Positions 256 through 63,367 of a stretch of 64,000 bases of DNA are shown here, one piece after another. Both the position numbers and the translations under genes were made by a program. This DNA is from Apostichopus japonicus (lineage: Eukaryota; Echinodermata; Holothuroidea; Aspidochirotida; Stichopodidae), in assembly GCF_037975245.1 (NCBI RefSeq), contig NC_092569.1, positions 15,911,001 to 15,975,000 on the forward strand. Direction: 5' to 3'. Each line of letters opens with the position of its first letter. The stretch's first letter is position 1. The notes under the pieces were generated by a model. The model searched no databases. It was not told the DNA's origin and was given only the letters and a program-made list of their open reading frames with translations.

Positions 256-879
256 GACAATGCGCAGCAGAATACTATGCATAAGTTGCACGTTATTCTA
301 TTATGTACAGTGCATACACAAGCATTTTGACGTAATCGTTGTTTGCATCTGGAATATCAAACTTTGACCTCCTTAAAAGAATATCAAACAATACTGACGA
401 ACGGGTAATTCCATTAGCTTCGTTTTTAGATGTTTGTTGTATTTGTTTACTGTATTCATGTACGTGTATTACGTGTATTTGCAGCCCTACAGTCAGTGGA
501 GTAACAGGTAATTTTAAGCTTAAAATTTATGTACAGGTTATAACAGGTTGAATCGTATGAGTTAGCTGATATTGTTTATTTGTAATATTCTTGCTTGTTC
601 GTTATTTGGTGTAGCAGAATTGTACTGTGTACGCATTAACTCATATGAGACTACATCTGTTTGGCTCAGATACAATTCGAATGCGATTTGAAATATATGG
701 GTTGTATTTCGGTAATTGTTGTTGCTAAAGTTGACGACGTTTACCATATTTCAACCAGGTGAAGACAGTTATTGTATGTATTTTCTATTATGGGTAATCT
801 GTAAACAAAATAATGAAGTTGCAATGTATTTGAGTTGAGTTATAAATACGCTCTGATATCACTTTTATTAATCATAGAC
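256..879. other. 5' flank of IFIT-like gene
   Basis: No gene is recognised here. The frame that becomes the IFIT-like CDS is already open from 817 (TGA at 814-816) but has no ATG before 880. AG dinucleotides at 833-834 and 838-839 could be 3' splice sites for an upstream 5' exon. The short ORFs in this stretch resemble nothing I know. Confidence 0.4.
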
Positions 880-23954: not shown

Positions 23955-24231
<277 letters not shown>

Positions 24232-25442: not shown

Positions 25443-28400
25443 ATGGAGAGAAAGAAATTTTTTCAGCTTTTCCATTTGGCACTTATCCTCATCGATATGA
25501 CGGATGCCGGAAGTAAGTGTATATTTTAAGATGATAATAAGAGTTATGGGTTCCATTTTCTTTCTATTTTACCAATAACAATATGTTGAGTCTTTTAGAG
25601 TCTCCTGTGGGTTTGTCAGGCTGTCTTGGTTGAGGGGTTTGGGCATACATAAAGTACATCCTGTTTTTATTTTTCTAATGGCTTATTTTGGCAACCTTGT
25701 GAATTTAAAGCAACGTGAGCAAGGCAACTTTCAGCAAATTTCGAGCAAGGGTTCTTCAAGAGTAATTCACTTTTATGAGTACTCGAGCTGCTTGAATATT
25801 AACATAACTACCCCTCCCTACATATATCTCCGTCTAGATTACAGAAAATTGATTGGAAAATATAAACGGGCTTACCTATATTCTATTAACTTCTGCATGT
25901 CTAATTGGAGTTTTCTTGTGATATTATAGTCACATCAGTTGGTATCTAGAAATATGTTGTTTATAGTTCGTAGGGCTATTGATATATGAAAATCCTATGT
26001 CATTTAATGGCTGAGTTCTGAGTGTTTTATCACCCTTTCATCTATACGATATATAAAACCGAGAATACTGTATTATTCTTCACTCTCAGTACAGTCAACA
26101 TGTACAGAAACATATACGAGTACGAGAACTGCTACCAGTAACTTCATTTATGTTTTGATGTTTTTAATATTGGTTATCTATACCATCCATTTTATTTAAA
26201 TTATGCTGATTTACTTCTTTTATAAAGAATTCCATATTTATAACCATTACTTCACACTTCACATAAATCTTAAGCATTTGTTTGTTCCGTTCTTTTCTGT
26301 TCTGCTTCTGTTTTTTTTTTTTTTGCGTTTCGTCTGTTTCGTTTTGTCTTGTCTTATGTTGTCTTGTTTTAATCATAACTTAATTTTGTGGCTGAGTATT
26401 TTTTTTTACTCTTGTACATGTAGCTGTTTCTGAGGTTAGTTTCTTCTTGTTTTCTTATTCATAGAGTTGTGTGATTTTGCTGAGAAATTTCCATGTAAAG
26501 GAAGCCACTGTTTACCTTCACCTTGTAAAGGTAAGTAAAATGTAAACAGAACACAGAATTTTGTCAAATTATTATTTATATATTTTTAAGAAGTTTAACA
26601 TGCCACAAAAATGATGTTTTCCTTGTGCCTGTGAATTAGGTGGTTTTCCAACTTGACGTCTTCTTAACTGGTTTAATTTTTCATTTAAACCAAAAATACT
26701 AATACAAAATACCATTGTTTGAGAGACAGCATTTAATATCGGTGTGTTTGGTTCGTTATAGAAATTGACAGTATTATCTCTTTATGAACTGCGTGCATTA
26801 TTTCAATTCAATTTGAAAATATTCGTTTGAATAAAAAAAAAATCTTTTTTGGGGGGGGATTGCAAATACAATTAATAAGTCTATGAGATATCACCCAATC
26901 AACTTGCTAGTATGATTTTACAATTTTCGCATTATTAACAACATTCTGTCTATGAGGACAGCCATTTTAAACATCCGCTTACATTCATTTTGGTCTGTTA
27001 AAGTAACATCATAACGAAAAGAAGACCACTAGATTTGTAAATTATGATTCAATGATATATTATTTTCTGGTTAGAGTGGAATACGTTATCTATTTAGCTG
27101 TTAATATATTTGTGTTGTTAATGATATTCTTATTTTCCACCATCTAATACCACTTTCTAACGAAACAAGAGATGTCTATGGTCCAAACTGTAGTGCAAAA
27201 TAAATAGAAAGAGGAATTCTATTTCCATGTAATTGAACCTACTTTAAAGCATTAATATATTTATACAACATTGTCCATAAACATCCTTCCTATACTGTTT
27301 TCTAGGTAAGACAATGCAAGAATCAAAGGAACCATCTACTGCAGTCATTACTGAACCACAAGGCACGACTCTAGGTAAGTCCCGTAGCATACCAAGCGCA
27401 CTACTCATATCATGTGATAATAGAATAAATCACATTAATTTTGCATTAATGTGCATTTTGATTTAATTTACATGCTTTCTTGAAAGTCGCAATCAGCTTT
27501 CGGTCGTTAAGTTCATATTAGGATGTTACTACATGGAGAAATGAAACAAACCATAATAATCATGATATTTCAAAGCTAAAACTGCTCTTATCTCCATTCA
27601 GGTTCTTCGATATATACGTGTCCTCCGAACATGATCTATGGAAACTGCACTTGTGAAGCAACATGTGAAGATCCCAAAGGAGAGTTTGCTTGTAACAGTA
27701 CCTGTTTAGGTAGCACGGGCTGTATCTGCAAAGCTGGATTAATGCTGAATGGAAGTGACTGTATCAGTGCGAGTAAATGCAGCTGTTTCGTTACAGAGGC
27801 CAACTTGGTTATATCGGTGAGTTTTTGTGACATCTATTTAAATTTCAGATGACATTTCTAAAGGATATTTGATCACAGAATTAAATTTTATCTGACAACA
27901 ATTTTGTTCTTCTAACCTAAAATTTTACATTTGATCTGTTTTAGAATGGAAAAACATACGTTAACGATAACTGCACCCAGAAGTGTTCCTGTACCAATAA
28001 CCGACTGATCTGTGAAGACGAGTACAACTGTAGTACCAATGCTGTGTGTGATGTCAAGAATGAAGTACGACAGTGTTATTGTAATGAGGGATACGAAGGT
28101 GATGGTGAAACTTGTGTATCCTTGCCGTATAGAGACTGCCAGGATGTTTATGACGCTGACCATAGGCAAGATGGCGTTCATACAATCAAGCCTACTGGAT
28201 GGCCTGGTTTACCATTCAACGTATCTTGCAAAATGGAAAACGGTGGAGGATGGACCGTAAGTCTTGATTGAAACAATATGAATATTTCAAGTATGTTTCT
28301 GTGAGTTTTGTTGATTAAGTCTATTGTAGACGGTATTGCAAGTCCGAGTTCCTGTTTTCGGTTTGGTTTCACTTTATAATTCCTTCCCAAGTATTGAGTG

Positions 28401-30514
28401 TATCAAAATTACTTTAGTAGAAGCAAAGTGTGATAATCCTAAAAATAGCCCACCCCCTAAAGAAAACAAAAACAAAGAAAAATCCTACATTTGTCTTACT
28501 GAAATAGTATTCTATAAATATATATTCGTGCGGTGTTTCTTAAATTAAGTTTTTCTGTTAGCATGCTTCACGACTCTCATCATTATCTTTCTTTTATTAT
28601 ATTTACTCGCTATCTTTTCAGGTGTTTCAACGTCGTACTGATGGTTCTACGAGTTTTTATCAAAACTGGACTGCGTACAAAGAAGGGTTTGGTGACAGCA
28701 GGAACTTATGGCTAGGAAATGAAAAGCTTCATTACTTGACGAACCAGAGAAACTACAAGCTTCGCTTTGACATCACTACTTCTAGTGGATCGGCTAAATA
28801 TGCTGAGTATACAAAATTTCAAGTCGAGTCTGAGAGCAGCAACTACACAATGAATAAACTGGGCACTCGCAGCGGAAATACAGGTTTGTTGCATGTTTGA
28901 TATTTGCGCCTTGCCTTAGATAATAGGTCAAGGTATAGTTACTAGTATGATGACAATAAACTTCATGAGAAAATGTTCGTCACGGTTTCAACACATCTTG
29001 ATTTTAAATATAACCTACAAAATCTGCTTTAAGTACACTGGATCAGAAACCCTTAAACAGAGGGTTGGGTGTAACACCCCCAACCCCTCCCCCTTCCTTT
29101 CACAATTCACGCACACAGTTTCGAAGGTTGTATATACGAGATCATTATCAAGTCTTTAATGCATTTCTGGGTATGTGTTTGAAAACTGTCACGCATTAAT
29201 TAAAACAAAATACAGATAGAAACAGACAAAAAAGTGAAGAAATAATACCACGAATATTCATCCATCTTAATTAGTTGCAATTGATGTGAAGAACCATCCT
29301 AACATTCGCCAGTTTTGGTGTTGTAATATTGGAATAGGAAAGAAGGTTTTTTCTCGAACGATATTTGAGCCAGTGATCTTAACCATTTGCAAACAATTCT
29401 CGTCCCATCTGGATTCGTTACTTTAAAGAAACAGTAATGTGTTAGATAGTTACCGTATCATCGTATCAATTGGATACCGGTGGTATCATTTACAAAATAT
29501 TGAACTAGTCTGAATAGCCGATGAAAGAGAATGTATGCTGTTTGAGAAAGCATCAGTCTAAGAAAGGGACACATCATGGAAAAGAAATACGACCATATAT
29601 CTTCACAGAACCATTAACAGAGAATAAATATTGAGGGTTTCCAGTGGACACATACTACTAACAGAATAATGTTCTTACAAGATCTGCGAAACAATTACAC
29701 CAAGAAGAGTCACACACCATCTTTGAAGACAAAGAGACATAGATAAAATTACAATGTGAAAATAATAACTAAAATATAGTTAATGAAACGCCCAGTGGTT
29801 AGTTTCCCTGTAAAACCAAGTACAATATTTACTAATTTAATCATAATATTGAATATCATCAGACAATAATTTCTTGTAGACAAGCTTAATTTGTATGTTA
29901 CTATTCATCAGTTAATTTTAATCCAGATCACCTCCATTAGTAAGAAAACCTAATTAAAATAAAGCACTATAAAGAATAAATCAGCACATGAAATATAAAA
30001 TGATTACGGAATTATTACATTAACAATGAATTCTGAATCTCTCTAAATAAAATCACCCCCCCCCCCACCCACAACCCTTCCTTTTCCAGTATACTGGAAA
30101 ATTCATTTAATGTCCTAACAAAAATTTGCAATATATCAGGATACTAACGCTAATGTTTAATGACTAAGTATTAACCACTGAAGGTTCTTGCTGTTTTGCT
30201 TCGCAGGTAAAAAATTGTCTATTGGCAGAGGAAAACAATTCAGCACGCATGACCGAGACAATGACCAATGTGGTAATATCAATTGTGCAGAGAAGTACAG
30301 AAGCGGCTGGTGGCACTCGAATGTTTGGTGCAATTTTTGTGATAGTATTGACTCTTGCTATTTTGTCCAGGACGTCAATGGCTGCAAGTTTGCTTGTACG
30401 ACCGAAAACCTCAATGGTGTCTACAATGGAGGAAATGGGGAAATGATCTTCTCTGATTATTTTAAGAACTGCAATGTCCAATATGTTGAGATGAAAATTC
30501 GACCATCCTCTTGA
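25443..30514 (+). CDS. Secreted fibrinogen-related protein (TIL-EGF-FReD), 7 exons; FREP1
   Basis: Exons are 25443-25512, 26465-26530, 27306-27374, 27602-27816, 27945-28256, 28622-28883 and 30207-30514, all GT/AG, giving 433 aa. Domains in order: a signal peptide (FFQLFHLALILIDM); a Cys-containing N segment; a Ser/Thr/Pro linker exon; a TIL domain starting CPPNMIYGNC; a VWC-like stretch; an EGF-like module ending CNEGYEGDGETC; and a fibrinogen C-terminal domain from YRDCQDVYDA to MKIRPSS. The FReD has the Ca-site motif DRDND and ENLNGVYNGG. Between WW and ENLNG it has about 27 residues with four extra cysteines. FReD proteins of invertebrates are usually secreted lectins for pathogen recognition; that role here is inference. 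Exons 1-3 end in phase 1, which suits module exchange. No lesions are seen. Confidence 0.92.
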
Positions 30515-40654: not shown

Positions 40655-43600
40655 TTAGCTGGTTGGTCGAATTTTCATCTCTACGAACTTGATATTGCAA
40701 TAAACATAATCGGAGGAGAAGATATTTTGTCCAGATCCTCCATTGTAAACTCCGTTTAAATTTTCACCAGTACACGTATAGTAGCAACTGTTGACTTGGA
40801 AACATGAACAATAGTAACCAAAACAATCAGAACACCAATCATCCATGTGCCACCATCCACTCTTGTTCTTTTCAGCGCAGTTAAAGGAGCTACAACCGTC
40901 GTTATCGTTGTCATGGGTGCTGAAAGAGCTGCCTTTGTTGCGGGAGAGTTCCGTCCCTGGGATATGAAGGAATAAATCTCATAGATAACACAATTTGTTG
41001 CCATGATAATACCGGATATGAGCTTTAATAGAAATATGAAAAATGGCAGCAAGTCCTATGACATGAAACATATTCTTGATAGTAAGCAATGACCACCTGT
41101 CCTGTTTTAACTGTTCAATATATCATACCAAGAAAGCGAATGTGTGCAATCACCATAAAAAAGGAGAAAATCAAGGATATTTAGGGGTCAATGTTTTCTA
41201 CTTTTCCAACCAATAACGTTGCAATTTTGTAATTGCTAGCACAATCATTATATGCAGCCATTTGAATGTATTTTCCAAATGGGCTATTTTAAGGTTGTTT
41301 ACATTGTAAAGTGATTATATTAAAAAAAAGATCTTTACAACTATCAAACCAAACTTACAACTTGGTCAATTATAGTATGAGAAGTTTGGAAATTTCGAAC
41401 GAACCTGCGTTACCACTATGGCTGCCTAATTTGTTCATCCTGTATTTGGTGGTTTCCGATTCTATGGCAAACTCGGTATATTCAGCATACTGGGATTGTC
41501 CTCCTGAAGTAGTAATATCGAAGCGAAGCTTATAGTTTTTTTGTGCTGTCAGGTAATGAATTTTGTCATTTCCAAGCCAAAAGTTTGCGCTGACATCACC
41601 AAAGCCGATCTTGTATGTATCCCAGTTTTGGTAAAAATCTGTAGTACCATCAATGCGACGTTGAAAAACCTGTAAAAAATGAAGAGATATTTAAGCACGA
41701 ATTTTACATTTAAGTTATAATCAACAAAAAGGAGTTATGCAGACCAGGCGCTTGTTTTATTCTTGTTGGATTAGCTCTGTAAAGTATACATACCATTCAT
41801 CATGGCCATGCAATGGGCATGATACTAGTATAGGCCAATAAGACAAGTACGAAAGTCACTAGGATCAGCCGATTCACACAGAGCTTACAGTAACTACTGT
41901 AAATCTCAAAGTTTTGTACCACAGTCAATACTGGATTTTGCTGATAAATCAGTAGCATGTGCTATTAGGTTTACAGTAACAACTGAGGATATGTATAATC
42001 TTAACAGATACCAACAACTGGATTTGTTGGAATTACACATATCCTTAGTTCTTACTGTAATCATAATAGCACATGCTACCGATTTACAGCACGATCCAGT
42101 TTTTTACTGTGGTACAAAACTGTAAGATTTACACTAGTAACTGTGTTCTAGATGTGTATCGGGTGCTAGAATGGTTCGAACAAAGTAACTGAGCACATAA
42201 GTTAGAGATTCCATAAACAGCTACGAATGAAAATCGAGTATATGCAGCCATTTTGGCATTAGAGTACACGTGTAAGGACTTACTACAACCAGGGAGTACT
42301 TACAAACTAAAAGGTAAAGTCTGTTTTCAAGCCGTAACGAAATATGAGGTATCGTGGCATTGGAAGCACTAATGCTGTTTTTGTTTCCTCTGATTCTGAT
42401 GAAATTTTACGGTACAGGGTTAATACTGTCAACGTTATATCATGAAGAGTTTTGGATTCAGATAAAGATACATTGTAACTGACTTACTGTCCAACCCCCG
42501 CCATTATCCATTTTACAGTAAACATGGAATGCTGCGCCAGGCCATCCAGCAGGAAGGATTTTGTAAACACCATCTTGCGTATAACCAGCATCGTAAACGT
42601 CCTTACAGTCTGAATACAGTACTTTAAAACAAATAGACCAAAAAACAAACAATAAAACATTTTCAGCTCTCATGAAATACTTGATACAAAAACAAAATTA
42701 TTATACTTTCTATCCAATTTGAAGATATACTTTAACTTTTCTAAAATCTAGTAAACGTTTTCGAGCAATTGCAAATACTTCAACTTTATAATTTTCAGTA
42801 TAAATCAACACACTATCTACCAACATCTAATTCAGTCACAACTGGGTATACTCACATCAAACCAACAACTGCAATTCAATCAATTTTTTTTTCGGCATTA
42901 TTCAAAAAGGTAATTGAAAAGGAATCATGCAGCTATATTGATTTTTTTCACTTGGTAAGTAATATACGACATCATATTGTTTAAAACCAGGTCAAAAACT
43001 ACATATTAGAGGTAATAACACCAATGTCCAGACATGGTTAGAGAACAGTAGCTCGGCATCTAGTAACGATGTATTCTAACTTCTAACAAAGACGAATCTC
43101 ATATTTGTCAATAGGTATTCACTAGGTACATTGATCAATATATTTGGCAATATATACAACAGTTTGCGGTAAGATTCATTTTACGTTTACGTTGTTTGTC
43201 AAGATTTTTATATCTAGCCCAATGAAAGGAAAGGCCTAAGCAACATGAAAGAGATCCGCTCCTTCTGATAGAAAAGGTAAAAAACTATCACTTACAAACT
43301 TACCAGGTGGAGTAGTAGTGGGTGATTCCGTAGTACTTGGCTTTATTGTGTGTTGTGTCGTTCCTATGAAAATAAAAGGATAACGCCCATTTAATTTCAT
43401 CAAACTGAACCCTTTAACAGATACTACATAGGCAGTAATATATCCGTTACATTTATCAATCTTAAGCGTTAGCGGAAATCATAGTTCTGTTATGCATTAA
43501 GTCTTGTTGCAAAGTTTGTTAAATATTATGAACATATTTCATAGCTTTTTTCTAAAATGCAATATTTCATGAAACCTATTCGAGATGAAAAAAAAATGAG

Positions 43601-45798
43601 CTTAAAGCTTCAACAACACATACTGAAATAAGAGACTGACTAATGACATTACAAGGGGGAAAAAAATATTACCATCGGATTTAAATAAGAGAAAAATATT
43701 AAAATTAATCATACCAGATGACGTAGTAGTTGGTAATTCAGTTGTACTTGGCTTTATAGCTTCTGTCGTTCCTGTAACAAACAAACAATAAATCAACTTA
43801 CTTTTGTACACAAACCAAGTACCTGTAATTGCCGTATTTAATAATGAAAGACATTTTTCTGTTTATCTTACCAGGTAACGTAGTAGTTGGTAACTGAGTT
43901 GTACTTGGCTTTATTGTTTCTTCTGTGGTTCCTGTTAGAAACAAACAATAGTACAACTTAATTTTCACAAGAAACAAATCCCTGTAACGGCAGTATTATG
44001 TAAAGTGATTTGTCCATTTAATATATATATACACTCTTAATTTTTCCGGGTCACTTTTTCCTGATAAAAATAGTTTCATCCTTTTCAGGATAAGTTTAAT
44101 CCATTCCCGGATAAAATTCAACCATTCCCGATTCAATTTCATTAGGCATGGTATCATTCCTTTGTACCGTTCCTGATCAGAACGTAGCGCTTGATGCTAT
44201 TGGCTGATGTACATCATGTGACATAAGCTTTGATTGTGCTTGCAGCGCTCGAACGCTATTCGTAGCCATCTTTTCCAAACTTTGCACTCACGAAATGCTC
44301 TTATGGATCTCGTAAGAGCAAAATTACTTCAATGGGGATTGGAGAAGTACGTCAAGAATTTCAAAGGTGAGTTATTAGGCACTTTCCATTTCGTTTGTTG
44401 TGTTAATCATACGCAATAAATTTAGTGATTTGAAGAAGCTATGCTCACTCCGTGACGGGTTTACTCTGGCCTAGCGTTATACAGTGTGCACTATAGTGTG
44501 TAGCGTGTGGTGGTTTTTGATTGACTGTACTGTACAGTATACTACAGTACTGTACATGCCTACACACAACAGTATGCAGTACTATTGTGAAGCCTCTATG
44601 GTGCTACAGGGCAAACAGTATTACTGTATAGTGGCCTATTAGTGGGTTCTAATGTTCAGTTGCTACTTCACCACAAAGTGGATTGTCATTTTTCGATAAC
44701 CAAATAAATTGAATGACATAAGTAAGGCAGGCAAGGCCTAATAAGGGTTCCTGGTAATTTAGATTTAGGTAATGTAAGACTTGCCTCCAGTGGGAATCAG
44801 TCTTTCCCTGTACAGTATGTTCTATATAAGGTGATCATTTACAAATAAGGCATAAGCCTATATGCTACTGTAGTGTTGTGGTTGGACTGGGCCCAGTAGC
44901 GGAGTGTACTGAACTGTACTTTTGCGTTGAAATGAAAACAACACTGATTTTTCGTACTTTTTTTTTTAATCAATATTTATATAAATAAGTTTCTGCAAAA
45001 GAAAAAAACAGAGATGGTAAAGTCATCATTAAATCGCAAATACATTTGTAGGCTAGTGTCCATAGGTTCATGGTATTGTGTAATAATACAGTCGACGCTT
45101 GAAGTAGCGGTTCCGCGAATATTTCAGGTATACCCGGTTATACCGAGCAGGTATGCCGCTTTATGTTAATGCTTATACCGATACACCTTTGCATAAAGTT
45201 GCCTAGTAATGGCAAAAAGAGGGGTAAAATAACACACTAAATGGTATGCAGAAACTTCTCTGAATTCTTATACTGTTCATGGAAATAGATCATAAAGATC
45301 TGAGATCCGTATTGAAACGTTCTGTAAACTTCATTTATGGCAATATGTTTTAAAATGCAAAATAAGGTAAGGAAAAATTGGCCAAATACAGGTCTTTTAA
45401 AATTGTGTTCATATACCATACTGTGTGCAAAAGTGGGTGCTGTACAGTATGGCTTGTGATAAGAATAGGCTCTTAATTGCATGAGGTCTGCAGATAAAAA
45501 AAAAATGCAGAAATGAATTTTCATGGAGGTATTACTACAATAAATTTTTAGAGAAGTAACATTTTGCTATCATATGTTGTCTTTGCTAAATTTCAGGAAG
45601 TCTAGTTTTGTGCTGGCACAGGTCGCCATGAAGCAACAGTCAACCTGGAAAACCGACTGCGATACGTGAGGAGAAAGGACCAAAATAAGACAAAGAAGTC
45701 TGTTTGCGACCCTCATAAACCTTCAAAGCTGGTTGACACAACAGATTTGAAATTGATATCAGGTAAATTAAATTAAATATATTTATTTATTTATTTAC

Positions 45799-45833
<35 letters not shown>

Positions 45834-48800
45834 TTCATTCATTCATTCATTCATTCATTCATTCATTCATTCATTCATTCATTCATTCATCCATCCATCC
45901 ATCATCCATCCATCCATCCATCCATCCATCCATCCATTCATTCATTCATTCATTCATGTAGTTTTTGCATCTAGTTACTTTTGTTGCTTAAAACGATATC
46001 AATGATTGTTCTTCACAGATGATGCAGAGGAGTGTGTTATTTCAGCGGTGGTAACGTGTCTGGAAACTGGAGTATCACAGAGCCTTTAATATCAGAGACA
46101 ATAAGAAGAGTTCTGTGGGAGATATTCTCTCAGAAAATACACAACAGATGACATGGTAAGAGTTTTACTCACTACATGTGCTGTTCTAGCTCAGTCACTT
46201 GGCGAACAGGAACCCGAACTAAAGTGCCAAAAGCTTACTGTTGCTGTAAGACTTAAGAAGAGTGAATAATGCCATGTTGTAGGCTACACATTATATATCA
46301 ACGTTAATTGGGCCATAAGAGTGTGGTATGAGTGTTTTGCTGGTCCTTTTCTAGCCTTTCCTTGGGTACCTGTTAGGTTGATTGCAATTTTACTGAGCTT
46401 CAAAATCATGCAAATCTGCTATTTCTCTTTCTTTTATGACTCTACTATTTTTAGTACTTTAAGTTAACGAAGGTTGCCTCACATTCTTAAAATCATATAT
46501 GTTTCTCAGAGAGAATGACCTAACGGTTATGAAATGATTGAGAATCACAATGATAATGATGCATGGTGTTGGTGATGGTGGTGGTGATGATGATAGTGAA
46601 GATGGTGGTGGTGGTGGTGATGATGATGGTGGTATTGGTGATGATGATGATGGTGGTGGTGGTGATGATGGTGATGATGATGAGGAGCTGGTTGCAAAAT
46701 TTCAAAATTGTGGCAATGTATGGTTGTATCCTTGTATGTCAGAATGTTGGAATTTGAAAACAAAAATGTGTAATTTCTCATATATCTTTTCAATAGATTG
46801 GCACAAACATACCATCTGTCCTTGATAAAGTTCAACAGCCACAGCCTTTCGTTTTGGCATGAGGACCAAGAGAGCAACCAGAGCAGGTGTTTAGTAGAGT
46901 TGAAAAAAGGGGGCTACCTTGCAATGACTTCTGCAGACAGTTGACATATGTTTTAAAATGCTTGATACTTGAAATAGAATGATACTACCTGGGACTTTTT
47001 GAGAACTTTTTGAACCAGAAGACTGAGTAATCATCACCTTTCTCTTACCCGTCATGGTATTAATGGATATCACATTATCTTAGATAACAAATTTATCATA
47101 GTTTGAGTTCAGTTTGTCCACTAATGTTCAATATTGACAAGTCAAATTGCACTGGAATAGTTCGGGTGAGCCGGTTGCATAATTTAATTGCACAAATTCC
47201 TCATTGTTATGTGTGAGCTGTTCAGATTTTAAAGAGGTGAATAGAGGGATGGTGTTATTTCTAGTATAAAGAGTGAGTGATGCATTGGTACTTAACCTGC
47301 CCCCACCATCTCCCCCAACTCAAATCTGCCTATGCCACTCAAAGTAACAAGAGAAACATCATCAAGCATTCATACGTGATTATGCAAGCACTTGTCCATT
47401 TCCAAACATGTTGGTGGTTCAGTGAAATACTTAAGTTTTCGAAGTATTTTCATTTATTTTAATACATAGAACATTCGATGCAATTAATATTTAATAAAAT
47501 TTTGCAGAGGTAAACATAGTAAGGAAATTATTTTTACAAACATTTTCTTATTCCCATGACAAATCACATCTCTATCATTTCTGCTGTATGTAACAAAGTT
47601 TTGTGCATGCAATTTAAAGTCTTACCTATTGTTAAGTTGTACAATATCAAAGTTGTGTCATTCTATAGTACTAAGTTATTCGTAACAAACCAACATATAT
47701 CAAAGTATCATTATTTGGTAAATAATGTAAGACCATTCGTTGAGAGGCTGGTGGAGTAGCATTTTTCAGAATTGTTCATTTTCCTGCAATATGTAGATTT
47801 CAAAGGTTAAAGTTAGCAGGAGATGATCTCTTTTAAGCACATTCTAACATTTGAACCTATTGTGGGATATCTTTAGTGGAGATTTTAAAGCATAAGACAT
47901 GCTTCTAGTTAAAAAATAAATATTTTGAAAGAAAAAGTTACACATAAATTGCCACAACAAGTCACGAGTCACATATATAGCAGGGATATAACTAAAAATA
48001 GTATACACTTTTGCTGCCTTGATAAAACTCTCGCATTCCATCCACTTTTCCATTTCCGCTTTTGTTCATCAGTATTGTAACCCAAATCAACCTCTTTCTG
48101 TAAGTAGAAATAGTTGACGTTGTTTGTTAACGAAGTTGTTAAAAAGAATAAAGACATGGCCAAGTTATTTTCAGATTTGTATGTTGCTTCTTATTCATAA
48201 CATATCCAGAACGTAAGAACCCTTGAAACGGAAACAGGATCAAATTTATCCGGAATGGGGTCATTGTTTTTTTGATCCGGAAATCCGGATCATTTTGATC
48301 CGGGCGGGATCGGTGCCCCTGGGATCCGGAAGCCGGATCAAATTTGATCCGGAATGGGGTCAATGTTCTTTGATCCGGAAATCCGGATCATTTTCATCCG
48401 GACGGGGTCGGTGCCCCTGGGATCCGGAAACCGGATCAAATTTGATCCGGAATGAAACAAATTTGATCCGGATGTTTTAAGAGTGTATATATACATATAC
48501 ATATATATATATTTTTATATATATATATATATTAATTTGGGGAGTGTAATTAAGACCAAATAAGATATAAATATTTTGCATTACGATACTTTGGCCATTA
48601 GTTGTACGGTAAGAAAGAATAGTTAGTATTTCTCTCTATTTGTCATGATATAAAGTTTACTCGAATAAAGAAGAATATCGTAAAATACACGCTCCAATAT
48701 GGAAGCAAAAGACATCACCATAATGAAAGACATTTTTCTATTTATCTTACCAGGTAACGTAGTAGTTGGTAACTGGGTTGTACTTGGCTTTACAGTTTCT

Positions 48801-51800
48801 TCTGTTGTTCCTGTAAGAAACAAACAATACATCAACTTACTTTTGTACACAAACCAAGTCCCTGTGTAAGGATGTATCACCTAAAGGCATCCATAGTTTT
48901 CTCCTTGGTGGGCAGAGGATAAACAACTGCCCATAGTAACAACCCAGTGACCTTTGACATGGGTCTATTACATCATCCTTGTTTAGACCATGGTGTGTCA
49001 CATGGTCACAAAGGACACCATTTTGTTTTACTTTGGTTTATTTTTGGAATGAACAAGTCCAGACCTGTTGGGGAGGAGATATTGGGGGAAGAAAGAAGGT
49101 GAGAGGGAGAGTGTAATTAACTTTAGGAGAGGGTGGACGGCAGCTAGGGAGGAGAGAAGCGGTATTTTCTTATACTCTTGTCAGATTATTATGTAGAGAT
49201 TTTCAATAAATTAAATATGTAGCTTTTACCATATTATTGGTGTTCATCTCCATTTCTTTTGTGTGTGAATTGGACATTCTCAACCCAATGTTCCAGGTGG
49301 GTGCATTATGACACCCTGTAATTGCAGTATTTTATAATGAAAGACATTTTTTGTATTTATCTTACCAGGTAACGCAGTAGTTGGTAACTGAGTTGTACTT
49401 AATATTTTGCATTACGATACTTTGGCCATTAATTGTACGGTAAGAAAGAATATTTAGTATTTCTCTATATTTGTCATGATATAAAGTTTACTCGAATAAA
49501 GACGAATATCGTGAAATACACGCTCCAATATGCAGTGGCGTAGCTAGGATTTTTTGAGTGGGGGGGCCATGGGGGGGCTGTTCTTTCTAGTGGGGGGGCC
49601 GGAGGTTACTATCTAAGCGGAGCGCCACCATGGTTGGCGCGGAGCGTACAGAGAAAATTTGAGATTTTCAGCACCCCCCAGATCGCAGGAGATGGCACCT
49701 GTGAGGCAAAATAGCAACCAAAAAAGATGTGCAACTTTGGTGACAGAAATGCAAAAAAAGTTTTTTCTCTTTCATGCTGACTGGCCTTGCCAACTCAACC
49801 AGACTTTTAACTTGAGGGAAGTTGGCATCATTTGTAGGAATTTCAGAATTCCCAATATTTTATATCTCTACCATACACAAGATGCAAACCAAATTTCATT
49901 ACGGATGCGGTCCGTCTAGCTATTCATTTCGAGAGAAAAAAAGTGAAAACTACTTTCGGTCATATATAGTAACAAATTGTGACACGGTTAGACAGGCGCT
50001 TTGCGAGGAATTTGCCAAGGGAGGGGCAAAGCTTGTACCCAGACTTTCTAAGCGTAGCGCCACCATGAGTTGGCGCGAAGCGCAAAAGAAAATTTTGGCC
50101 GAAAATGCCTCCCAGATCGCTGGAAATGGCACTTCCCAGGCCTTGTAAGTTGCATCTAAGCATTTTCTGTTTTGAAATTACTAGCGATATCATAAAAAAA
50201 TACAAAACATATGCTTAAAAAAAAACTATGCCACCAAATATTGGGGGGGATATAAGATACTATATCCCCCACCTAAAATATTGGGGGGACATGTCCCCCC
50301 CGTCCCCCCCCCCCCATGATCGCCACCCATGAATACCTGATACCTCGGCTCAGAACAAACGGAGCCAATCTTTTGATAGATTGTTGCGCTAGGTGGAAGC
50401 ACTGAACATATTTTCAGCAGATATCGCTATCACGCAGCACAACAAGGTTCGTGGTGTATGGTCGCAATCGTCGCATCGACCATTGCTATGCCATGCTGTG
50501 TGACCATTCTCGATTACTACAGATATTGTATTATTCTTATTCTGCCAGATGCAGACGAGAAAATTGTGTAACTCTATTTCCCAAATTATTGAACAAAAAA
50601 TATTAGCGAATCGCACTGATGAGTGTTTTTTTTTACCCCATTCCCAGTGGGGGGGCCAGTGGGGGGGCCAGCCGATTTCATGGGGGGGCCTCGGCCCCCC
50701 CAGGCCCCCCCGTAGCTACGCCACTGCCAATATGAAAGCAAAAGACATCACGATAATGAAAGACATTTTTCTATTTATCTTACCACGTGACGTAGTAGTT
50801 GGTAACTGGGTTGTACTTGGCTTTATAGTTTCTTCTGTCGTTCCTGTGAGATACAAACCATACATCGCTCTATATTTTGCACAAAAACCAAATCCATGTA
50901 GTTGCAGTATTATTTATAGTGATTTATCTGTTCATTGTATAAATCGAAAGACTAGTGCAAATAAACCGAATCAGATATTAACATTTGGCGATACGATACA
51001 ATGACCATTGCTTGTACGGTAACAAGGAATAGTTGGTATTTCTCTCTATATGTCAAAGAGGAATATTATGCATTACACGTTCCGATATGAAAATAAAAGA
51101 CCACCATACTGAAAAATATGTTTCTATGTTTCCTACCAGGTGACGTAGTAGTTGGTAATTCAGTTGTACTTGGCTTTATTGTTTCTTTTGTCGTTCCTGT
51201 TAGATACAATCAATACTTCAATTTACTTTGCACAACAACCAAGTTCCTGTAATTACAGTATTATGTATAGTGATTTGTCCATTTAATAAGTGTCATTGAA
51301 ACCAAATCAAATATTAATATTTTGCATTACGATACATTGGTCATTAGGGTTAAAAAGAATAGTGGTATTTCTCTCTATTTGTCATGAAATAAAGTTTACT
51401 TGAATAAAGAGGAATATTTTAAAATACATGCTCCAATAAGAAAACAAAAGACATTAACAAAGTGAAAGAACACACACGCGAAAAAACAATTTTACTATTT
51501 ATCTTACCAGGTAACGTAGTAGTTGGTATTTCAGTTGTACTTGACTTTATTGTTTCTTCTGTCGTTCCTGTGAGATACATACAATACATCAACTGACTTT
51601 TCACAAAAACCAAATCCTTGTATTGGTAGTATTATGTATAGTGATTGTCAATTAAATCTATATATCTCGGAAGTGTCATTGAAACCAAATCAAATATTAA
51701 TATTTTGCATTACGATACATTGGTCATTAGGGTACGAAAGAATAATTGGTATTTCTCTCTATTTGTCATGTTATAAAGTTTACTCGAATAAAGAGGAATA

Positions 51801-54800
51801 TCATGAAACGCATTCTCCAATATGAAAACAAAAGACATCACCAAAGTGAGATAAAAAAAAAAAATTTTAAAAATCTATTTATCTTACCAGGTGACGTAGT
51901 AGTTGGTAACTGGGTTGTACTTGGCTTTATTGTTTCTTCTGTTGTTCCTATTAGAAACAAACAATACTTCAACTTAATTTTGAACACAAAAAAAACAAGT
52001 CTCTGTAATTACAGTATAATGTATAGTGATTTATCCGTTCATTGTTGTATAAATGGGAAGTGCAAATTAAACCGAATCAGATATAAATATTTGGCAATAC
52101 GATATAATTACCATTTCTTATATGGTAAAAAGACGTACTTGGTATTTCTCTCTATTTGTCATGATATAAAGTTTACTCGAATAAAAAGGAATATTATGCA
52201 TTAAACGTTCCGATATGAAAACAAAAGACATCACCACAGTGGGGAAAAAAATATGGTTCTATGTATCCTACCAGGTGACGTAGTAGTTGGTAATTCTGGC
52301 GTACTTGGCGGCTTTGTTTTTTGTGTCGTTTCTATCAAAATACAAGTATTACATCAAAAAGATTTATAGAACTTGCAATTATCAATAGCACCACTCTTTA
52401 TATTAAATATGTTAGAAATGATTTATCCAGGAAATATATGAATCCGAAGTGTATATTAATATTCACATTAATGATATTACACATTTGTTATTATATATTT
52501 TGATATACAATGATCTTTGTTAATGACAGCTATCACTACTAATACTATTGTTACTACTACTACTACAAATACTACAACTACTACTACTACTTAAAACAAT
52601 ATTTGTGTGTTGTAATATATCATGATGGGGCAAATGTAGTATATACTATATAAACTTACCAGATGGAGTAGTACTTGGTAATTCAGTAGAACTAGGCTTT
52701 CTTGTTTCTTCCGTCGTTACTTTAAGAATAGAAGGTTCGATTTCACTCACGTTTAATAAGTTATGCTTAAGTATATTTAATGTACAATATTGTACAATAT
52801 ATCAGTTGTTATATTTCCATTAAAAATACAACCCCGAAGTGTAAATGAAATTTAAGTAACATTTAGTTAATACTAGAGTTTCAGATAAGGTGAAAGTTAC
52901 CATCTGTAACAATTAAAGGAATTACTACAAGAGTTCAACGCTCCAAACCTGATGTTAGGAAAAGTAAATTTATATTACTTAAAACTTAACAGATGAGGTA
53001 GTAGTCAAGAAATTCACTAGTACTTGGCTTCAATGTTATTTTTGTCGTATATTAACTATAATGATATATAAAGTAAAACTTTAACCAATAATTAATTATA
53101 CTGGCATTAAACCATACAATAGTTTCATTATTAAACTCGCTGATTTTGATGCGCAATAATAAATGTTAGTAGGGATATTTAGATTCATTTGTAAGAATTT
53201 TACATGTATAATTCAAAGGTATGTGAATGGGTGAAACGAACAGTTCCTAATACTTTTTTAATTCCTATGTGTCTTTGTTTTCAAACAAATAGATTCTTTG
53301 TTTTACGAAATCATTAGGAGAAATGCAGGAGGAACACGAATCATAATCTATCTATAATTGGACAAGAATTGTAACACTTGCATATAATCAAACCTACTAG
53401 GTGACGTAATAGTTGGTATTTTACTTGTACTTGGATTTATCGCTTCTTGTGTTGTAACTATAGTAGAATATAAGAACAACGTTAACATATATGTAAGCAG
53501 GGTTATAGCTAGGAGATTGTGAGTGCTGGTTAAATAAATTTGCGAAGCGTAGCGAGCGTAGCGAGCGAAGCTCTCGCATCTCACGGCCGGGGGTCCAGGG
53601 GCCCGCTTAAGGTAAATAACAGAAAAAGGAAAAAGGAAAGATAAATTTGTTACTTTTGTTGTATTTCACAAGCATTTTACTATTTTTTTGTGCCGGCCAG
53701 TGGACTGTTTACTCACTTCCAATGCCGGCCGGCAGGCGTGAGTGGCGGTTACCACCGGCCGCCGCCGGCCCGGGTGGCTATAACCCTGTATGTAAGTATA
53801 CTTCCATCAAAGGTCACCTTTCTGTTTGAAAATCATTAAAGGCTTCGAAGGTCAAAACATCGTCAACCTTAGATATATTGTGTTTTACATAACCACATTA
53901 TTATGACAATGTCCTTTTATCTCTCTTTTCTTTTTCCTTTTTTTCCACCTAATCGCAGAGTTCGAAAGGATGAAATCTTCATAAAAGAGACAACGCATTT
54001 GTTATTCCAAGTAATTAAAAAAATACATGTTATAAAACGGAAAAGACAATACACCCGCGGCCGATTAATGTTTTATTGATAAACAACCGCGCTGTCATCG
54101 ACTGAATTTGTAATTTGCTTGTTCTCTGCGAATGTACCAACATTTTGGCAAATAAAAATAACATTTTCATTGTTGTATGATTATTAACAACGCAATAATA
54201 CCAACAACAAACAGAGAGTGTAGAGTCAGGAGGTATGGGGTGTGTTCGAGTTTTTGTTTTAAATTAAACGAATAGAGAGGCTTTAAGCAGTGGTGTATCC
54301 ATATCTTAACTATTTAGATGATTTAACTAAATTTTTAAGGAGCAATTCACATTGTGTAGCTTTCACTATTTTGTTACTCTGAAGAACACAGATCATTAAG
54401 TTTCTACCAACATAAGGAAGATAGTAACTATAATCACCTAGATTCAGACAATGGTGAAAGAAAGTAAACGAATATGACGATGACATACAATGACACTTAC
54501 AAGCAGGAGTAGTAGTCAGTTCTTTAACAGTACTTGGCCTTAATGGTTCGTGTGTCGTACCTACGAAAGTAATTTGAGTTATACTTAGTACACAACTTTA
54601 TATATAACATATTTTGGGGGCTGGGATTTACCCATTAAAATCAACAATAAATAGAGCAGAATAATAGGCTCGCGCTAGGACACATTCTGCCATATAATTA
54701 TACAATATGCATTGTTTTTACTCTCTATCTGTCTTTTTGCATGTTGCAAGCATACAAAACTTAACCAAAACTTACTCTCACTGGACTTTAAGCTCTAAAA

Positions 54801-57279
54801 AGCACGAAACACAAAACGAAAGAATAAAACTAGTGAAGCAATCATCAAAATAACCAGTTTGTGATAACAGTAAATTCTAGATACTAAATTCCAAATGATT
54901 TGTATAATAACGAGATAACATACCGTGTACGTGTTTACACTATTATGAAAACGACACACACACACAGAAAAACGACAAAAAGAAATCCACGCATATCCTG
55001 TACATATCTTAGCTACATGAAACCAAGTAGCAAATTTATGTTTTCATATTTAGTGTATTAATAATTGAAATAAAAAGCCCAGTCGTTAGAACAAATAACA
55101 TTAGTGTAGCGCAATGACCCTTCCTCGTTCAAATGAATAAGCTTACAATGGATAACTATATGTCTTATCTGTATGTATTGCTACTTTTCTTTCATTTTCG
55201 AAACTGATACGGTAACTCCACTTGTACTTACCTCCGTTTACCGATGGTCCAGTTGAAAATTTTGCCGTGTTGGTGCATGTCAAGTTGTCCCAAAATACAT
55301 ATTTATGAGCTAAATAATGTAATTAAAACGAAGAGCGATTCATTAAAATAAAAATAACATAAAATAATATAATATAGAATCAAGAACTTTAATAATGAAA
55401 ACACTGAAGGATTCATGCTACATAATCAACAGAGTTACTCTAACGATACGGAGATGGGCTTATTTACCCGTTAGCAGTTTTCCCCTTTAATTTAATTGCA
55501 ATATTATTTTCTCTTTTCTAAGCTGGCTCCAGTGAATTTAGCATGTCTGTTAAATTAGATTGATAAATTAAACACTAAATCTGTTCGTCATGTAGCAACC
55601 ATTTATTTTGAATAAACGTGAAGGCGATTTATGGTACCTTTAATGTATATTACATTGATTGCATGAACCAATGGAAAACCTCCCATGATATACCGCTAAA
55701 ATATATTCTAGTGACTAAAGGATAGAGTGCTTCACAAAATTGCTGAAAGCTTTATGTTCCTAGTATTTTGTATTGCAAAGGTATGGAATTCTAACATTTA
55801 GTGAATTATTGTAAATGCATCTGGCAACAGCAGAATGGATGATGTCATCATGGCAATTTAATGGCATATTGAAAATGTCTTGGGTTTTCTTTATAAATTT
55901 TGTCAATCATTTAACCACTGACAAAAGGAATACTTCTAAAAAACAAAGGAATTATTCTAAGTACAGTGAACCAATGACAGCTATGCAAACCATTGAAATG
56001 TATCAGTTTCAAGGAAAAGTCAACAAGAAGATTAAAGAAATGTAGGTAAAGCTTTCGAAGAGCATTTGCCCAGATGACGTCAGAGGCACCCGACTGTGAT
56101 CCAATTTCCTGGAGTAGTTGACGTAAAGATCACATAATTCAAACAAATATATCTCTAGGCAAAAATATTGAAAAAGGGTTTTCAACTTACAGTACAGAAT
56201 ACTTTATTAAGGAAAAGTCGCCCAGGAATGAACCTGGGCACGAAAACCAAACTACCGAACGACTGGTCCGCTCTCAACCCCAGTCCCCTTGCATCGGGAC
56301 TGTGACTGTGTGATCACAGTACAGAATATGTTTCTCTTCAATATACTTTTCACATAGTTTGTGGCCAGAAAATACTTTAACGTACCGTCACTATATCACC
56401 AAGTAACCTTGTTGCATTGTGAGTGTGAACAAGTTTTTAGAAAATCTATATGCATGATGTTAATTAAGCTGACTAGAGATAATAAAAAATAAAAAATAAA
56501 TACTTCATTTATTTAACCAAACGACACCTTTTTAACTATAAATATACATGAAAAAACCAAGCCCATTTGACTATGAATTTCCGAGAAGAGGTTCAATGAA
56601 GGGTTCCATAATTACCGTATTACCAAGTTGTTAAATTGAAAAACCGTCGTTATAGTTTGAATAAAGTTTCTTTAAAAGTTGACACATTCTTGTTATTTCC
56701 CATAAAATTCTTGTCCCTAGTAATCATTGTGATGGTCAATGCCGGCATTATAGAGTTTTGCTACTTAATGCATACAATTTACCATTATGCAAATAGCCTC
56801 GTGAATTTGATGTAAAACTTAATGTACTTTAAATTGACATAAAACAAACGGAATGACTCATTAGTATTACTCGCTTTCTCTGAAACAATAAATAACGTCT
56901 TCAAAGTTGCATATGAAGAGTATATACGTTAAAGTATACGTCCATGTATACAATGACCTTAATCATTTTAATTAACATTACTGTACATGAATTATTTTCT
57001 TAGACTAGGATTTTGTCTGAGACTTGCGTAGTGAACTTGATATCTTTTGGGTATAAGTAGCAACATTAAAACTCACAAACTAAAAAACATTTTAACGTAT
57101 ACAGCTTCTTAATTCATGAAGATATATTCTTTCTTCAGAGTTATAGGCCTAATTATTCATACATACACTAACAGTTACAAAGTATGTGGAATAGTAAACT
57201 TACCGTTGGTCAGGGATACGAGAAATACCAACAATATCTTCATAATCATTATAGATTGTGATATATCCCTCTTCTTCAT
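40655..57279 (-). CDS. Secreted fibrinogen-related protein with multi-exon mucin-like stalk; FREP2
   Basis: 5' to 3' on the minus strand: signal exon 57279-57204 (alternative ATGs at 57249 and 57243; core MKILLVFLVSLTN); exon 55309-55232 with an NLT glycosylation site; twelve usable linker exons (54560-54501, 53457-53398, 52719-52660, 52331-52272, 51947-51888, 51567-51508, 51196-51137, 50843-50784, 48810-48751, 43931-43872, 43771-43715, 43363-43304); then FReD exons 42609-42488, 41669-41405 and 40956-40655. If all are used the CDS is 1560 nt, 519 aa. The FReD runs from DCKDVYDAGYTQDG to MKIRPTS, with Ca motif DNDND and ENLNGVYNGG. A Cys-rich insertion (WCSDCFGYYCSCF) follows WW. Unlike FREP1 there is no TIL or EGF module. 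Known family role: secreted recognition lectin. The long O-glycosylated stalk is inference. Actual exon use is unknown. Confidence 0.87.
41888..42143. mobile_element. Foldback MITE, family 2
   Basis: An almost full-length hairpin. The left arm ACAGTAACTACTGTAAATCT pairs with the right arm AGATTTACACTAGTAACTGT, and further in ATCAGTAGCATGTGCTATTA pairs with TAATAGCACATGCTACCGAT. It lies in the FREP2 intron between the first and second FReD exons. A second copy is at 59474-59700. Confidence 0.85.
45776..45957. repeat. (TTTA)n-(TTCA)n-(TCCA)n-(TTCA)n tetranucleotide tract
   Basis: Successive blocks of related tetranucleotides inside the TIR element. Confidence 0.95.
46563..46685. repeat. (GGT/GAT)n trinucleotide tract
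   Basis: Imperfect mix of GGT and GAT units. The poly-His and Asp/Gly ORFs here are artefacts. Confidence 0.93.
48236..48478. repeat. GATCCGG-rich subterminal tandem repeats
   Basis: Two and a half copies of a unit of about 98-100 bp that begins GGATCAAATTTGATCCGG (itself a palindrome) and includes ATCCGGAAATCCGGATCA and GGTGCCCCTGGGATCCGGAA. They lie just inside the right end of the 4.46-kb TIR element. Confidence 0.88.
49366..49400 (-). pseudogene. Truncated FREP2 linker exon
   Basis: The donor (GTAAG) and the last 35 nt of a linker exon remain, encoding STTQLPTTALPG. The 5' part and the acceptor are gone, because 49401 joins directly to intron sequence AATATTTTGCATTACG of another unit. 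It cannot be spliced as a normal internal exon. Confidence 0.85.
49533..50726. mobile_element. hAT element with 8-bp TSD in the linker array
   Basis: Ends CAGTGGCGTAGCTAGG and (reverse-complemented) CAGTGGCGTAGCTACG. The 8-bp duplication CCAATATG lies at 49525-49532 and 50727-50734. Internally, GCGGAGCGCCACCATG (49618) and GCGTAGCGCCACCATG (50053) are repeated modules. G-rich and C-rich runs lie near the ends. No intact transposase is seen, so it is non-autonomous. Terminal sequence and TSD length fit the hAT superfamily. Confidence 0.92.
52535..52591. repeat. (ACT)n microsatellite
   Basis: Imperfect ACT/AAT trinucleotide run in the FREP2 intron between two linker exons. Confidence 0.9.
52990..53049 (-). 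pseudogene. Decayed FREP2 linker exon, both splice sites lost
   Basis: Still recognisable (ITLKPSTSEFLTTTSS), but the donor reads CTG|TTAAGT instead of CTG|GTAAGT, and no AG precedes the expected 5' boundary. It is the most diverged unit in the array. Confidence 0.85.
53498..53788. mobile_element. hAT MITE with 8-bp TSD
   Basis: Ends CAGGGTTATAGCTAGG and (reverse-complemented) CAGGGTTATAGCCACC. The 8-bp duplication TATGTAAG is at 53490-53497 and 53789-53796. The interior is GC-rich (GCCGGCC repeats), unlike its surroundings. At 291 bp it is non-autonomous. It lies in the FREP2 intron between linker exons 53398-53457 and 54501-54560. Confidence 0.93.
56202..56315 (-). mobile_element. U2-SINE body, 5'-truncated copy
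   Basis: Shares its body with the complete copy at 63174-63367: CCCAGG...CCTGGG hairpin, ACCAAACTACCGAACGACTG, CAGTCCCCTTGCATCGGGAC. It lacks the U2 head. It is flanked by a perfect 13-bp duplication ACAGTACAGAATA (56189-56201 and 56316-56328), which shows retroposition with 5' truncation. It lies in the first region of the FREP2 intron after the signal exon. Confidence 0.9.
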
Positions 57280-59700: not shown

Positions 59701-60119
59701 TTAATGTAATCTCTGTGTGAAACTCGGCTGAATGGTCAGTATTTCTATTTTAAGTTTAATAAGTAATTTTACATTTCACCTATCAGTTATTATATAACAA
59801 AGAAGTTTACTAGAAAGAACGTATTGGTACCAATAGAGATTCGAAGCTCTATGAAGTGGAATATAGTAATCATCAAACATTGGTTGTCCTCATACGAACT
59901 AGAGTAAGCAAAGACAAATGTCAGGTTTATTTCGGTTTCAGAATTTTCATTTCAGTTTATCGATTCCTCCAAGACTATGTTACTAAAATGCCATTTAAAT
60001 ATTTGCATCGTTCGCATAAGGTATGGAAAATAATCGATAAGCTTACAATCTATTTAAGTAATTATTTGTCGGAAAGTATTGACTCTACTGTGAACGATCT
60101 CTGCTATGGCAATGCTTGC

Positions 60120-60836
60120 AATTAATTGAAACTCTGTATGTAGGATACTAGCCTAATGGTTAGACCACCAATTAATGGAAACTCTGTTTGTAGGATATTA
60201 GCCTAATGGTTTGACCACCAATCAAAGGAAACTCTGTATGTAGGATATTAGCTTAACGGTTAGACCACCAACTAATAGAAACTCTGTATGTGTGATATTA
60301 GCCTAACGGTTAGCCCACCAATTAAAGGATACTCTGTAAGTAGGATATTAGCCTAACGGTGAGACCACCAATCAAAGGATACACTGTAAGTAGGATATTA
60401 GCCTAATGTTTAGACCAAAAATTAATTTCAACTATGTATGTAGGATATTAGCCTAACGGTGAGACCACCAATCAAAGGATACTCTGTAAGTAGGATATTG
60501 GCCTAATGTTTAGACCAACAGTTAATTTCAACTATGTATGTAGGATATCAGACTAACCGTTAAACCGCCAATTAAAGGAAACTCTGTATGTATGATATTA
60601 GCTTAACGGGTAGACGACCATTTAATAGAAACTCTGTATGTAGGATATTAGCCTAACGGAAGACCATCAACTAATGGAAGCTATGTATGTAGGATATTAG
60701 CCTAACGGTGAGACCACCAATCAAAGGATACTCTGTATGTAGGATATTAGCCTAATGTTTAGACCACCAAGTAATGGAAACTATGTATGTAGGATATCAG
60801 CCTAAGCGTTAAACCACCAATTAATTGACACTCTGT
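60120..60836. repeat. 50-bp minisatellite, about 14 copies
   Basis: The unit contains ACTCTGTATGTAGGATATTA and GCCTAACGGTTAGACCACCA. Part of the array has a 100-bp higher-order period (alternating AATCAAAGGATAC and TTAATTTCAACTATG units, 60350-60560). Each unit carries a word (TAGCCTAACGGTTAG) like a tRNA A box, but there is no B box. Confidence 0.93.
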
Positions 60837-60913
60837 ACAAGGGACATTTAATATAAAAAAAATATGTTGACACTCACTATGACCAAGTTAGCCTCTCGTA
60901 TAAAACAACTTAC

Positions 60914-62768: not shown

Positions 62769-63173
62769 CCGGGGCTGTTACTCCTACCTAGCCCACCCCT
62801 CCCAACACACACACCCAAACTACCTTCGAACCATTATTTATACACATGTGTTAAGAATATCAGAGCAGGAGGATACAGTCACAATGACATGTTTCCTTGA
62901 AAACGTTGAATACAGTTTTCACTCGTCCATTCCACCACTTACTGGAGCGTATATTATACTAAATTGTTGTCTTTTTTTTCCATCTCATTAATTCAAAAGT
63001 ATCATAACATATGGTACACACTTGTTTAAATTACTAAATTGTTGTCAATATTTAGCGAAACACATTGTGAACATCATATTGTGGAGGGGGTAAGTGGACT
63101 TACCCCCTCACCACATACCTTTTCAGGGAAGAAATGGGGACGAATAAATACTTGGCAAATGAAAATATACGAT

Positions 63174-63367
63174 ACTTTTTAAGACAAGTCACCCAGGAAA
63201 GGACCTGGGCACGAAAACCAAACTACCGAACGACTGATCCGCTCTCAACCCCAGTCCCCTTGCATCGGGACTGTGACTGTGTGATCATCGTCGGGTGTGT
63301 ATCACCATTCCACTCGAAAGGGAACAGATACTACACATGATCTTAGCCAAAAGGCCCGAGAAGCGAT
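63174..63367 (-). mobile_element. Full-length SINE with U2 snRNA-derived head
   Basis: On the minus strand the first ~46 nt (63367-63322) read as the U2 snRNA 5' end: ATCGCTTCTCGG, CCTTTTGGCTAAGATCA, TGTGTAGTATCTGTTC, with one inserted G and one substitution. After that the sequence leaves U2 (no Sm site) and continues into the body also present at 56202-56315, ending CTTGTCTTAAAAAG. It is flanked by 13-bp near-identical duplications GAAAATATACGAT (63161-63173) and GAAAATAAACGAT (63368-63380). The element begins exactly at U2 nucleotide 1. Confidence 0.9.

Follow-up and report, generated by a model that had tools for sequence, protein, structure and literature searches.

The 64-kb stretch of Apostichopus japonicus DNA analysed here (the window) contains a fibrinogen-domain gene, FREP2, whose stalk is encoded by an array of twelve intact mini-exons (M1-M12), and a protein model made by others uses seven of them. 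P0001, an uncharacterised A. japonicus NCBI protein of 424 residues, was found by a search with the fibrinogen part of FREP2 (its 90% cluster holds three sequences, of which one is shown) and is 100% identical to FREP2 over the head. All 4096 subsets of the 12 mini-exons were joined and compared with P0001, and a single subset equals it letter for letter: M1, M3, M4, M5, M6, M7 and M12, with M2 and M8-M11 omitted. Seven mini-exons, their phases and their junctions therefore agree with an independently made model. On balance, and with limited confidence, we favour the explanation that the mini-exons act as a coding module for the stalk of a secreted fibrinogen-domain protein, and that stalk length is set mainly by cassette-exon inclusion. 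The reading as a stalk encoded by modular in-phase exons is well supported, and an adjustable stalk length is plausible.

The array lies on the minus strand at 43304-54560, the exact span given in an earlier note on this DNA; its first unit is 54560-54501 and its last 43363-43304. Eleven intact mini-exons measure 60 nt and M11 measures 57 nt. Every one is flanked by AG on its 5' side and GT on its 3' side, i.e. by GT-AG splice sites, begins at codon position 2 and finishes at position 1 (phase 1-1), and encodes about 20 Thr/Pro/Ser-rich residues. Two additional copies, D1 and D2, have decayed. The exons of the gene and the decayed units, in the order of transcription, are:

57204..57279, minus strand: signal-peptide exon, from start codon to phase-1 donor; identical in P0001
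55232..55309, minus strand: second exon, single Cys, phase 1-1; in P0001
54501..54560, minus strand: mini-exon M1, 60 nt, ends in T; in P0001
53398..53457, minus strand: mini-exon M2, 60 nt; absent from P0001
52990..53048, minus strand: decayed unit D1, frame lost
52660..52719, minus strand: mini-exon M3, 60 nt; in P0001
52272..52331, minus strand: mini-exon M4, 60 nt; in P0001
51888..51947, minus strand: mini-exon M5, 60 nt; in P0001
51508..51567, minus strand: mini-exon M6, 60 nt; in P0001
51137..51196, minus strand: mini-exon M7, 60 nt; in P0001
50784..50843, minus strand: mini-exon M8, 60 nt; absent from P0001
49366..49400, minus strand: decayed unit D2, 5' half lost
48751..48810, minus strand: mini-exon M9, 60 nt; absent from P0001
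43872..43931, minus strand: mini-exon M10, 60 nt; absent from P0001
43715..43771, minus strand: mini-exon M11, 57 nt; absent from P0001
43304..43363, minus strand: mini-exon M12, 60 nt; in P0001
42488..42621, minus strand: fibrinogen-domain exon 1, from the domain match and the P0001 comparison
41405..41669, minus strand: fibrinogen-domain exon 2, from the domain match and the P0001 comparison
40655..40956, minus strand: fibrinogen-domain exon 3 with the stop codon, from the domain match and the P0001 comparison

An nhmmer DNA profile built from the 12 intact units and run over the whole window placed exactly 14 units above the inclusion threshold, the same twelve intact and two decayed phase 1-1 units that the earlier note had counted. 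Expectation values (E) were 1.6e-13 to 1.8e-18 for the intact units, which had themselves built the model, and 1.6e-8 and 2.9e-7 for the two decayed units, which were absent from it. Six further matches in the window were below threshold (E 0.4-6.4), and the reversed window, used as a control, gave four matches, none above threshold (best E 1.2). Further units elsewhere in the window were thus sought, and nhmmer gave none above threshold. A simple tandem repeat or chance repetition is ruled out, with units lying 157-4879 nt apart (start to start) and splice sites conserved.

The 17 exons (signal, Cys, 12 mini-exons and three fibrinogen-domain exons) form one open frame of 523 aa, of which residues 293-521 match Pfam Fibrinogen_C (PF00147; E 2e-48), a C-terminal FReD. 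That this is a fibrinogen-domain gene with modular in-phase stalk exons, as had been proposed, is borne out; the linkers do lie between signal exon and FReD, with the extra Cys exon (55232-55309) preceding the array. Serine and threonine make up 47% and proline 15% of the 239 residues of a 12-unit stalk, in agreement with the Pro/Thr/Ser-rich repeats of a mucin-type PTS domain. A Pfam scan of FREP2 at E 0.001 returned nothing besides Fibrinogen_C, with no immunoglobulin domain and no collagen match such as would mark a collagen-like, ficolin-type stalk. The solved structures closest by sequence are ficolins, ficolin-1 being the top PDB match, and other solved sequence relatives include tenascins and angiopoietins. 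The acidic DNDND stretch and NCAEK of the FREP2 head are kept in the alignment with ficolin-1; we take them to be a sugar-binding motif, which would make FREP2 a putative binder.

The joining of these exons obeys one strict rule. M1 ends in T, so it can join only M2, M3 or fibrinogen-domain exon 1: M1 joined to M4 gives TAA, and M1 joined to any of M5-M12 gives TGA. Open subsets number 3585 of 4096 and closed ones 511 of 4096, the number expected from the M1 rule alone. The earlier claim that nearly all junctions keep frame therefore holds for most combinations and fails where M1 meets M4-M12. P0001 obeys the rule, joining M1 to M3, and the codon at this junction is the exact one predicted when M2 is skipped. 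The model is compatible with exon skipping. It joins seven cassette exons and thus does not follow mutual exclusion of the Dscam type. A copy-number difference between assemblies is a less likely explanation of the short public model, since P0001 is completely identical to the joined window exons.

The exons left out of P0001 bear the marks of coding sequence. Divergence between units was compared in exons and intron flanks, splice signals excluded, for M5-M10, M8-M11, M5-M7 and M4-M7, with M1, M2, M3 and M12 outside the comparison. The figures are descriptive and carry no p-value, as the pairs share history and the exons are short: in M5-M10 (15 pairs) 78/900 exon positions differ (0.087) vs 184/1008 in intron flanks (0.183), with no gap event in 900 aligned exon bases vs 7.5 per 100 intron bases; in the left-out M8-M11 (6 pairs) 31/351 (0.088) vs 89/419 (0.212), with 0.85 vs 5.97 gap events per 100; in the used M5-M7 (3 pairs) 16/180 vs 38/196, with 0 vs 8.16 gaps per 100; and in the used M4-M7 (6 pairs) 48/358 vs 99/392. 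Core-unit intron divergence was 0.25 in a loose multiple alignment and 0.18 in pairwise alignment, that of exons being about 9%. Across all 12 units the loose alignment gave an intron difference of about 0.45 vs 0.21 in exons, and the introns of M1-M3 and M12, the outer units, have drifted too far apart for an exon/intron contrast. Pooled Nei-Gojobori ratios of nonsynonymous to synonymous change were 0.39 (M5-M10) and 0.58 (all 12). In a rough neutral-decay simulation, at rates that we chose ourselves, one unit stays intact with a probability of 0.20-0.54 and five with 0.0003-0.045. Since M8-M11 are as conserved relative to introns as M5-M7, a coding role over most of their history is probable, and they may still enter some transcripts. 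Pseudo-exon status of M5-M11 for most of that history is ruled out by the exon/intron contrast and the gap counts.

That weak splice sites explain the five omissions is not clearly supported. Against a donor consensus, left-out exons match at 6-7 of 9 positions and used mini-exons at 6-8 of 9, and pyrimidine content is 0.59-0.71 vs 0.53-0.82. Three insertions split the array:

44021..48496, strand not assigned: insertion of about 4.45 kb in the M9-M10 intron, with terminal inverted repeats (inverted repeat I1, 79% complementary over 38 nt)
49533..50726, strand not assigned: 1194-bp insertion with inverted ends, between M8 and D2, with an 8-bp direct repeat (49525-49532/50727-50734)
48865 to 49315: insertion of about 0.44 kb, seen as an alignment break

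The largest insertion also holds a 98-bp tandem repeat rich in GATCCGG (48229-48454).

One constitutive transcript containing all or nearly all intact exons would fix the stalk at about 12 units, and P0001 would be short because near-identical 60-nt exons are hard to annotate where transposons abound. We find this doubtful, although it accommodates several observations: M8-M11 resemble M5-M7 in conservation and splice scores, and they sit in the transposon-rich half of the array, among introns of 1973 and 4819 nt. The omission of M2 goes against it. M2 is distinct in sequence, so confusion between repeats does not explain its absence, and the M1-M3 codon in P0001 is precisely that expected of its skipping. 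Unlikely, too, is a single constitutive seven-exon transcript, as in P0001, with M2 and M8-M11 recently silenced and heading towards the state of D1 and D2. Two units have indeed decayed, transposons lie among M8-M10 and P0001 uses seven exons, but all five left-out exons retain frame and splice sites, and M8-M11 are under exon-like constraint (M2 was outside that test).

Several points weigh against cassette inclusion as the main determinant of stalk length. A search with the first 300 FREP2 residues returned P0001 alone among 7985 candidates scored, so a second isoform of FREP2 would have no counterpart among the sequences that this stalk search reached. P0001 may merely be incomplete, which leaves the exon skipping proposed in the earlier note with a matching 7/12 subset and correctly predicted junctions from a model that could be truncated. 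Beyond the descriptive nature of the divergence counts, constraint, assessed over M4-M11, indicates past rather than present use. Finally, the mean donor match is slightly lower in the five left-out exons (6.4) than in the used ones (7.0).

The similarities between units record how the array grew. M5-M8, introns included, are 76-84% alike over 292-354 bp, and identity between M8 and M9 is 89% over 171 bp. The closest pieces of the array reach 89% over 146-171 bp and 93-94% over 47-86 bp, and outer units resemble other units over little beyond the exon itself. One shortened form of intron is common to the M11-M10 pair (100-nt intron) and the M9-D2 pair, with an identity of 93% over 86 nt on the side of D2 and of 88-89% over 126-146 nt in the other places. 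The probable reason is duplication of a block of two exons. The array looks to be without recent expansion, and the 18-25% divergence of core introns speaks against an active one. Ongoing unequal crossing-over, in particular, is rejected because neighbouring units are never near-identical. The earlier note had invoked that process. A past block duplication can be recognised and unit numbers differ between paralogues; core exons about 9% and introns 18-25% apart go against a continuing role. Base-paired intron sites linking units were also considered: an inverted-repeat search of 43000-55000 (minimum 20 nt, seed 12) gave five pairs, namely transposon ends, two overlapping palindromes, one pair inside the large insertion and one polypurine/polypyrimidine pair, none of which joins unit to unit over 20 nt or more.

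Comparable stalks are found in related proteins. Relatives were taken as the best 120 of 1079 matches, which makes the count of unit-bearing ones a lower bound. A screen for Ser/Thr-rich, Cys-free stretches was positive in 22 of the 120, and units were judged from the full sequences of 25 of the 120 plus P0121 and P0122, covering 15 of the 22 positives. At least 11 of the best 120 have two or more stalk units (P0001, P0014, P0031, P0025, P0107, P0057, P0050, P0047, P0044, P0038 and P0046), all named A. japonicus, and some may be isoforms or sister genes, e.g. P0107 with P0025. In starfish, P0103 and P0072 carry short repeats of a different kind, rich in Thr. Five unit types can be told apart, of about 20 residues (FREP2), 22 (P0014), 23 (FREP1 type), 23 (P0038 type) and 36 (P0025/P0031; P0031 has nine 36-residue units and one of 33), with identities between types of 0.08-0.48. 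Mean unit identity is 0.75 within a protein (115 pairs) vs 0.36 between proteins (788 pairs), P0044, P0031 and P0122 being missing or under-represented in these means because the identity patterns matched no units in the first two and one in the third (P0031 was counted separately). Higher identity within than between proteins suggests that genes amplified their units separately, or homogenised them internally.

The neighbouring gene FREP1 (25443-30514, plus strand) has seven exons, with TILa, a sub-threshold EGF-like match and a fibrinogen domain. It had been credited with one such exon, and a single phase 1-1 T/P exon is indeed present (27306-27374); at 69 nt and a mean 39% identity to the FREP2 units it belongs to another unit type, and the DNA profile missed it. 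Units of the FREP1 type number from one (FREP1, P0028) up to five matched in P0057, and FREP1 is about 80-82% identical to P0047 (two units) and P0048 (one unit). P0121, an older model found with the P0014 stalk, seems to come from the same A. japonicus gene as P0014, with which it shares its first 119 head residues exactly. Each has six 22-residue units, in a different order, which hints at either variation between animals or an error in a model.

Based on these comparisons we can present a proposal for how the stalk arose and works. The ancestral unit would have been one phase 1-1 exon plus intron, about 370 bp in all. Tandem duplication would then have copied it one unit at a time and, on one occasion or more, as a block of two exons. 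The spliceosome's choice of cassette exons would chiefly set stalk length, from the 7 units of the public model up to 12, some transcripts presumably using the other five exons, and the N-terminal part and the head would stay untouched. On the evolutionary scale, exon gain, decay and transposon insertion would set it. The stalk, probably O-glycosylated and stiff, would put distance between the fibrinogen head and its anchor or partner chains and could act on reach or avidity. A broader idea, possible and held here only tentatively, is that sea cucumber FREPs diversify the stalk and not the binding site: several unit types would have been amplified separately, and cassette splicing would grade head-anchor distance and glycan load, tuning reach and avidity in coelomic fluid. 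Models of splicing could also be tested on FREP2, in which nature provides numerous in-phase cassette exons of known sequence and a single strict junction rule, that of M1.

Two other roles have to be weighed against adjustable display of the head. The stalk could be a spacer for matrix or adhesion in a protein linked to regeneration, which would be compatible with any of the splicing readings. A. japonicus FREPs, a family with a 21-gene cluster, increase during visceral regeneration according to the available part of the species' genome paper (PMC5638244), and tenascins and angiopoietins are among the solved relatives, but the top matches among solved structures are ficolins, and we judge this quite unlikely. 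An immune diversity device giving many recognition forms per animal or cell, a function that the earlier note had in mind beside avidity, is very improbable: most subsets are open, and the genome paper names FREP as the most expanded family of the species (PMC5638244), but core units are near-synonymous and alter length only, the binding head is unchanged, the array is old and not homogenised, and the stalk search yielded no isoform besides P0001.

Elsewhere the window holds minisatellites at 3600-4330 (29-bp unit, 25 copies) and 60119-60837 (50-bp unit, 14.4 copies) and a perfect (ATG)n run of 92.3 copies at 23955-24231. A single 723-aa open frame at 817-2988 (plus strand) has tetratricopeptide repeat matches including TPR-S, and we presume it to resemble IFIT-like proteins. 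The open frame at 13161-13763 (plus strand) has a weak reverse transcriptase match (E 0.0026) under the curated cut-off. A U2 spliceosomal RNA match at 63141-63367 (minus strand) scores 52.5 bits vs a gathering score of 46 and is perhaps degenerate, as it spans 227 nt vs the 192 positions of the model.

Among known systems, ficolins likewise place a stalk before a fibrinogen-domain head. Their stalks are collagen-like (Gly-X-Y), whereas that of FREP2 is Thr/Pro/Ser-rich, with no collagen match. DC-SIGN and DC-SIGNR carry a lectin on a neck of variable repeat number, much as we propose for the FREP2 stalk; unlike in FREP2, their neck repeats lie within one exon and form a coiled coil, and the lectin fold is another one. 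The FREPs of Biomphalaria are also fibrinogen-domain immune proteins, and the accessible part of PMC12074976 attributes their diversity to gene conversion, point mutation, alternative splicing and exon loss; they bear immunoglobulin domains, whereas the Pfam scan gave none in FREP2. In searches of the open-licence literature for sea cucumber and echinoderm FREPs we found no description of mini-exon stalks, and the available portions of PMC13228809 and PMC13428168 mention FREPs and not mini-exons.

The closest published architecture that we found is that of SmPoMuc of Schistosoma mansoni, as described in the available part of PMC2576457. There, a 27-bp exon in tandem repeats of about 1 kb encodes Ser/Thr/Pro units, transcripts carry 1-100 repeats, and repeat number differs between genes. 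In FREP2, too, the genomic units stand in tandem, and every unit contains a single in-phase exon for an S/T/P repeat. The SmPoMuc repeats are >93% identical, which is attributed to concerted evolution, whereas in FREP2 the core introns have diverged by 18-25% and the exons have been kept. Coccidioides SOWgp and spider silk genes (via PMC2576457) also encode repeats by exon-plus-intron units, though homogenised and in other proteins. SmPoMuc is a parasite mucin; the FREP2 stalk, known from the gene and one protein model, leads instead into a fibrinogen head. Repeated-exon mucin arrays are documented on the parasite side of the snail-schistosome interaction (PMC2576457). If a fibrinogen-domain family of a host has genes laid out in this way, diversification in invertebrate immunity would seem to act on the length of the stalk as well as on the binding site.

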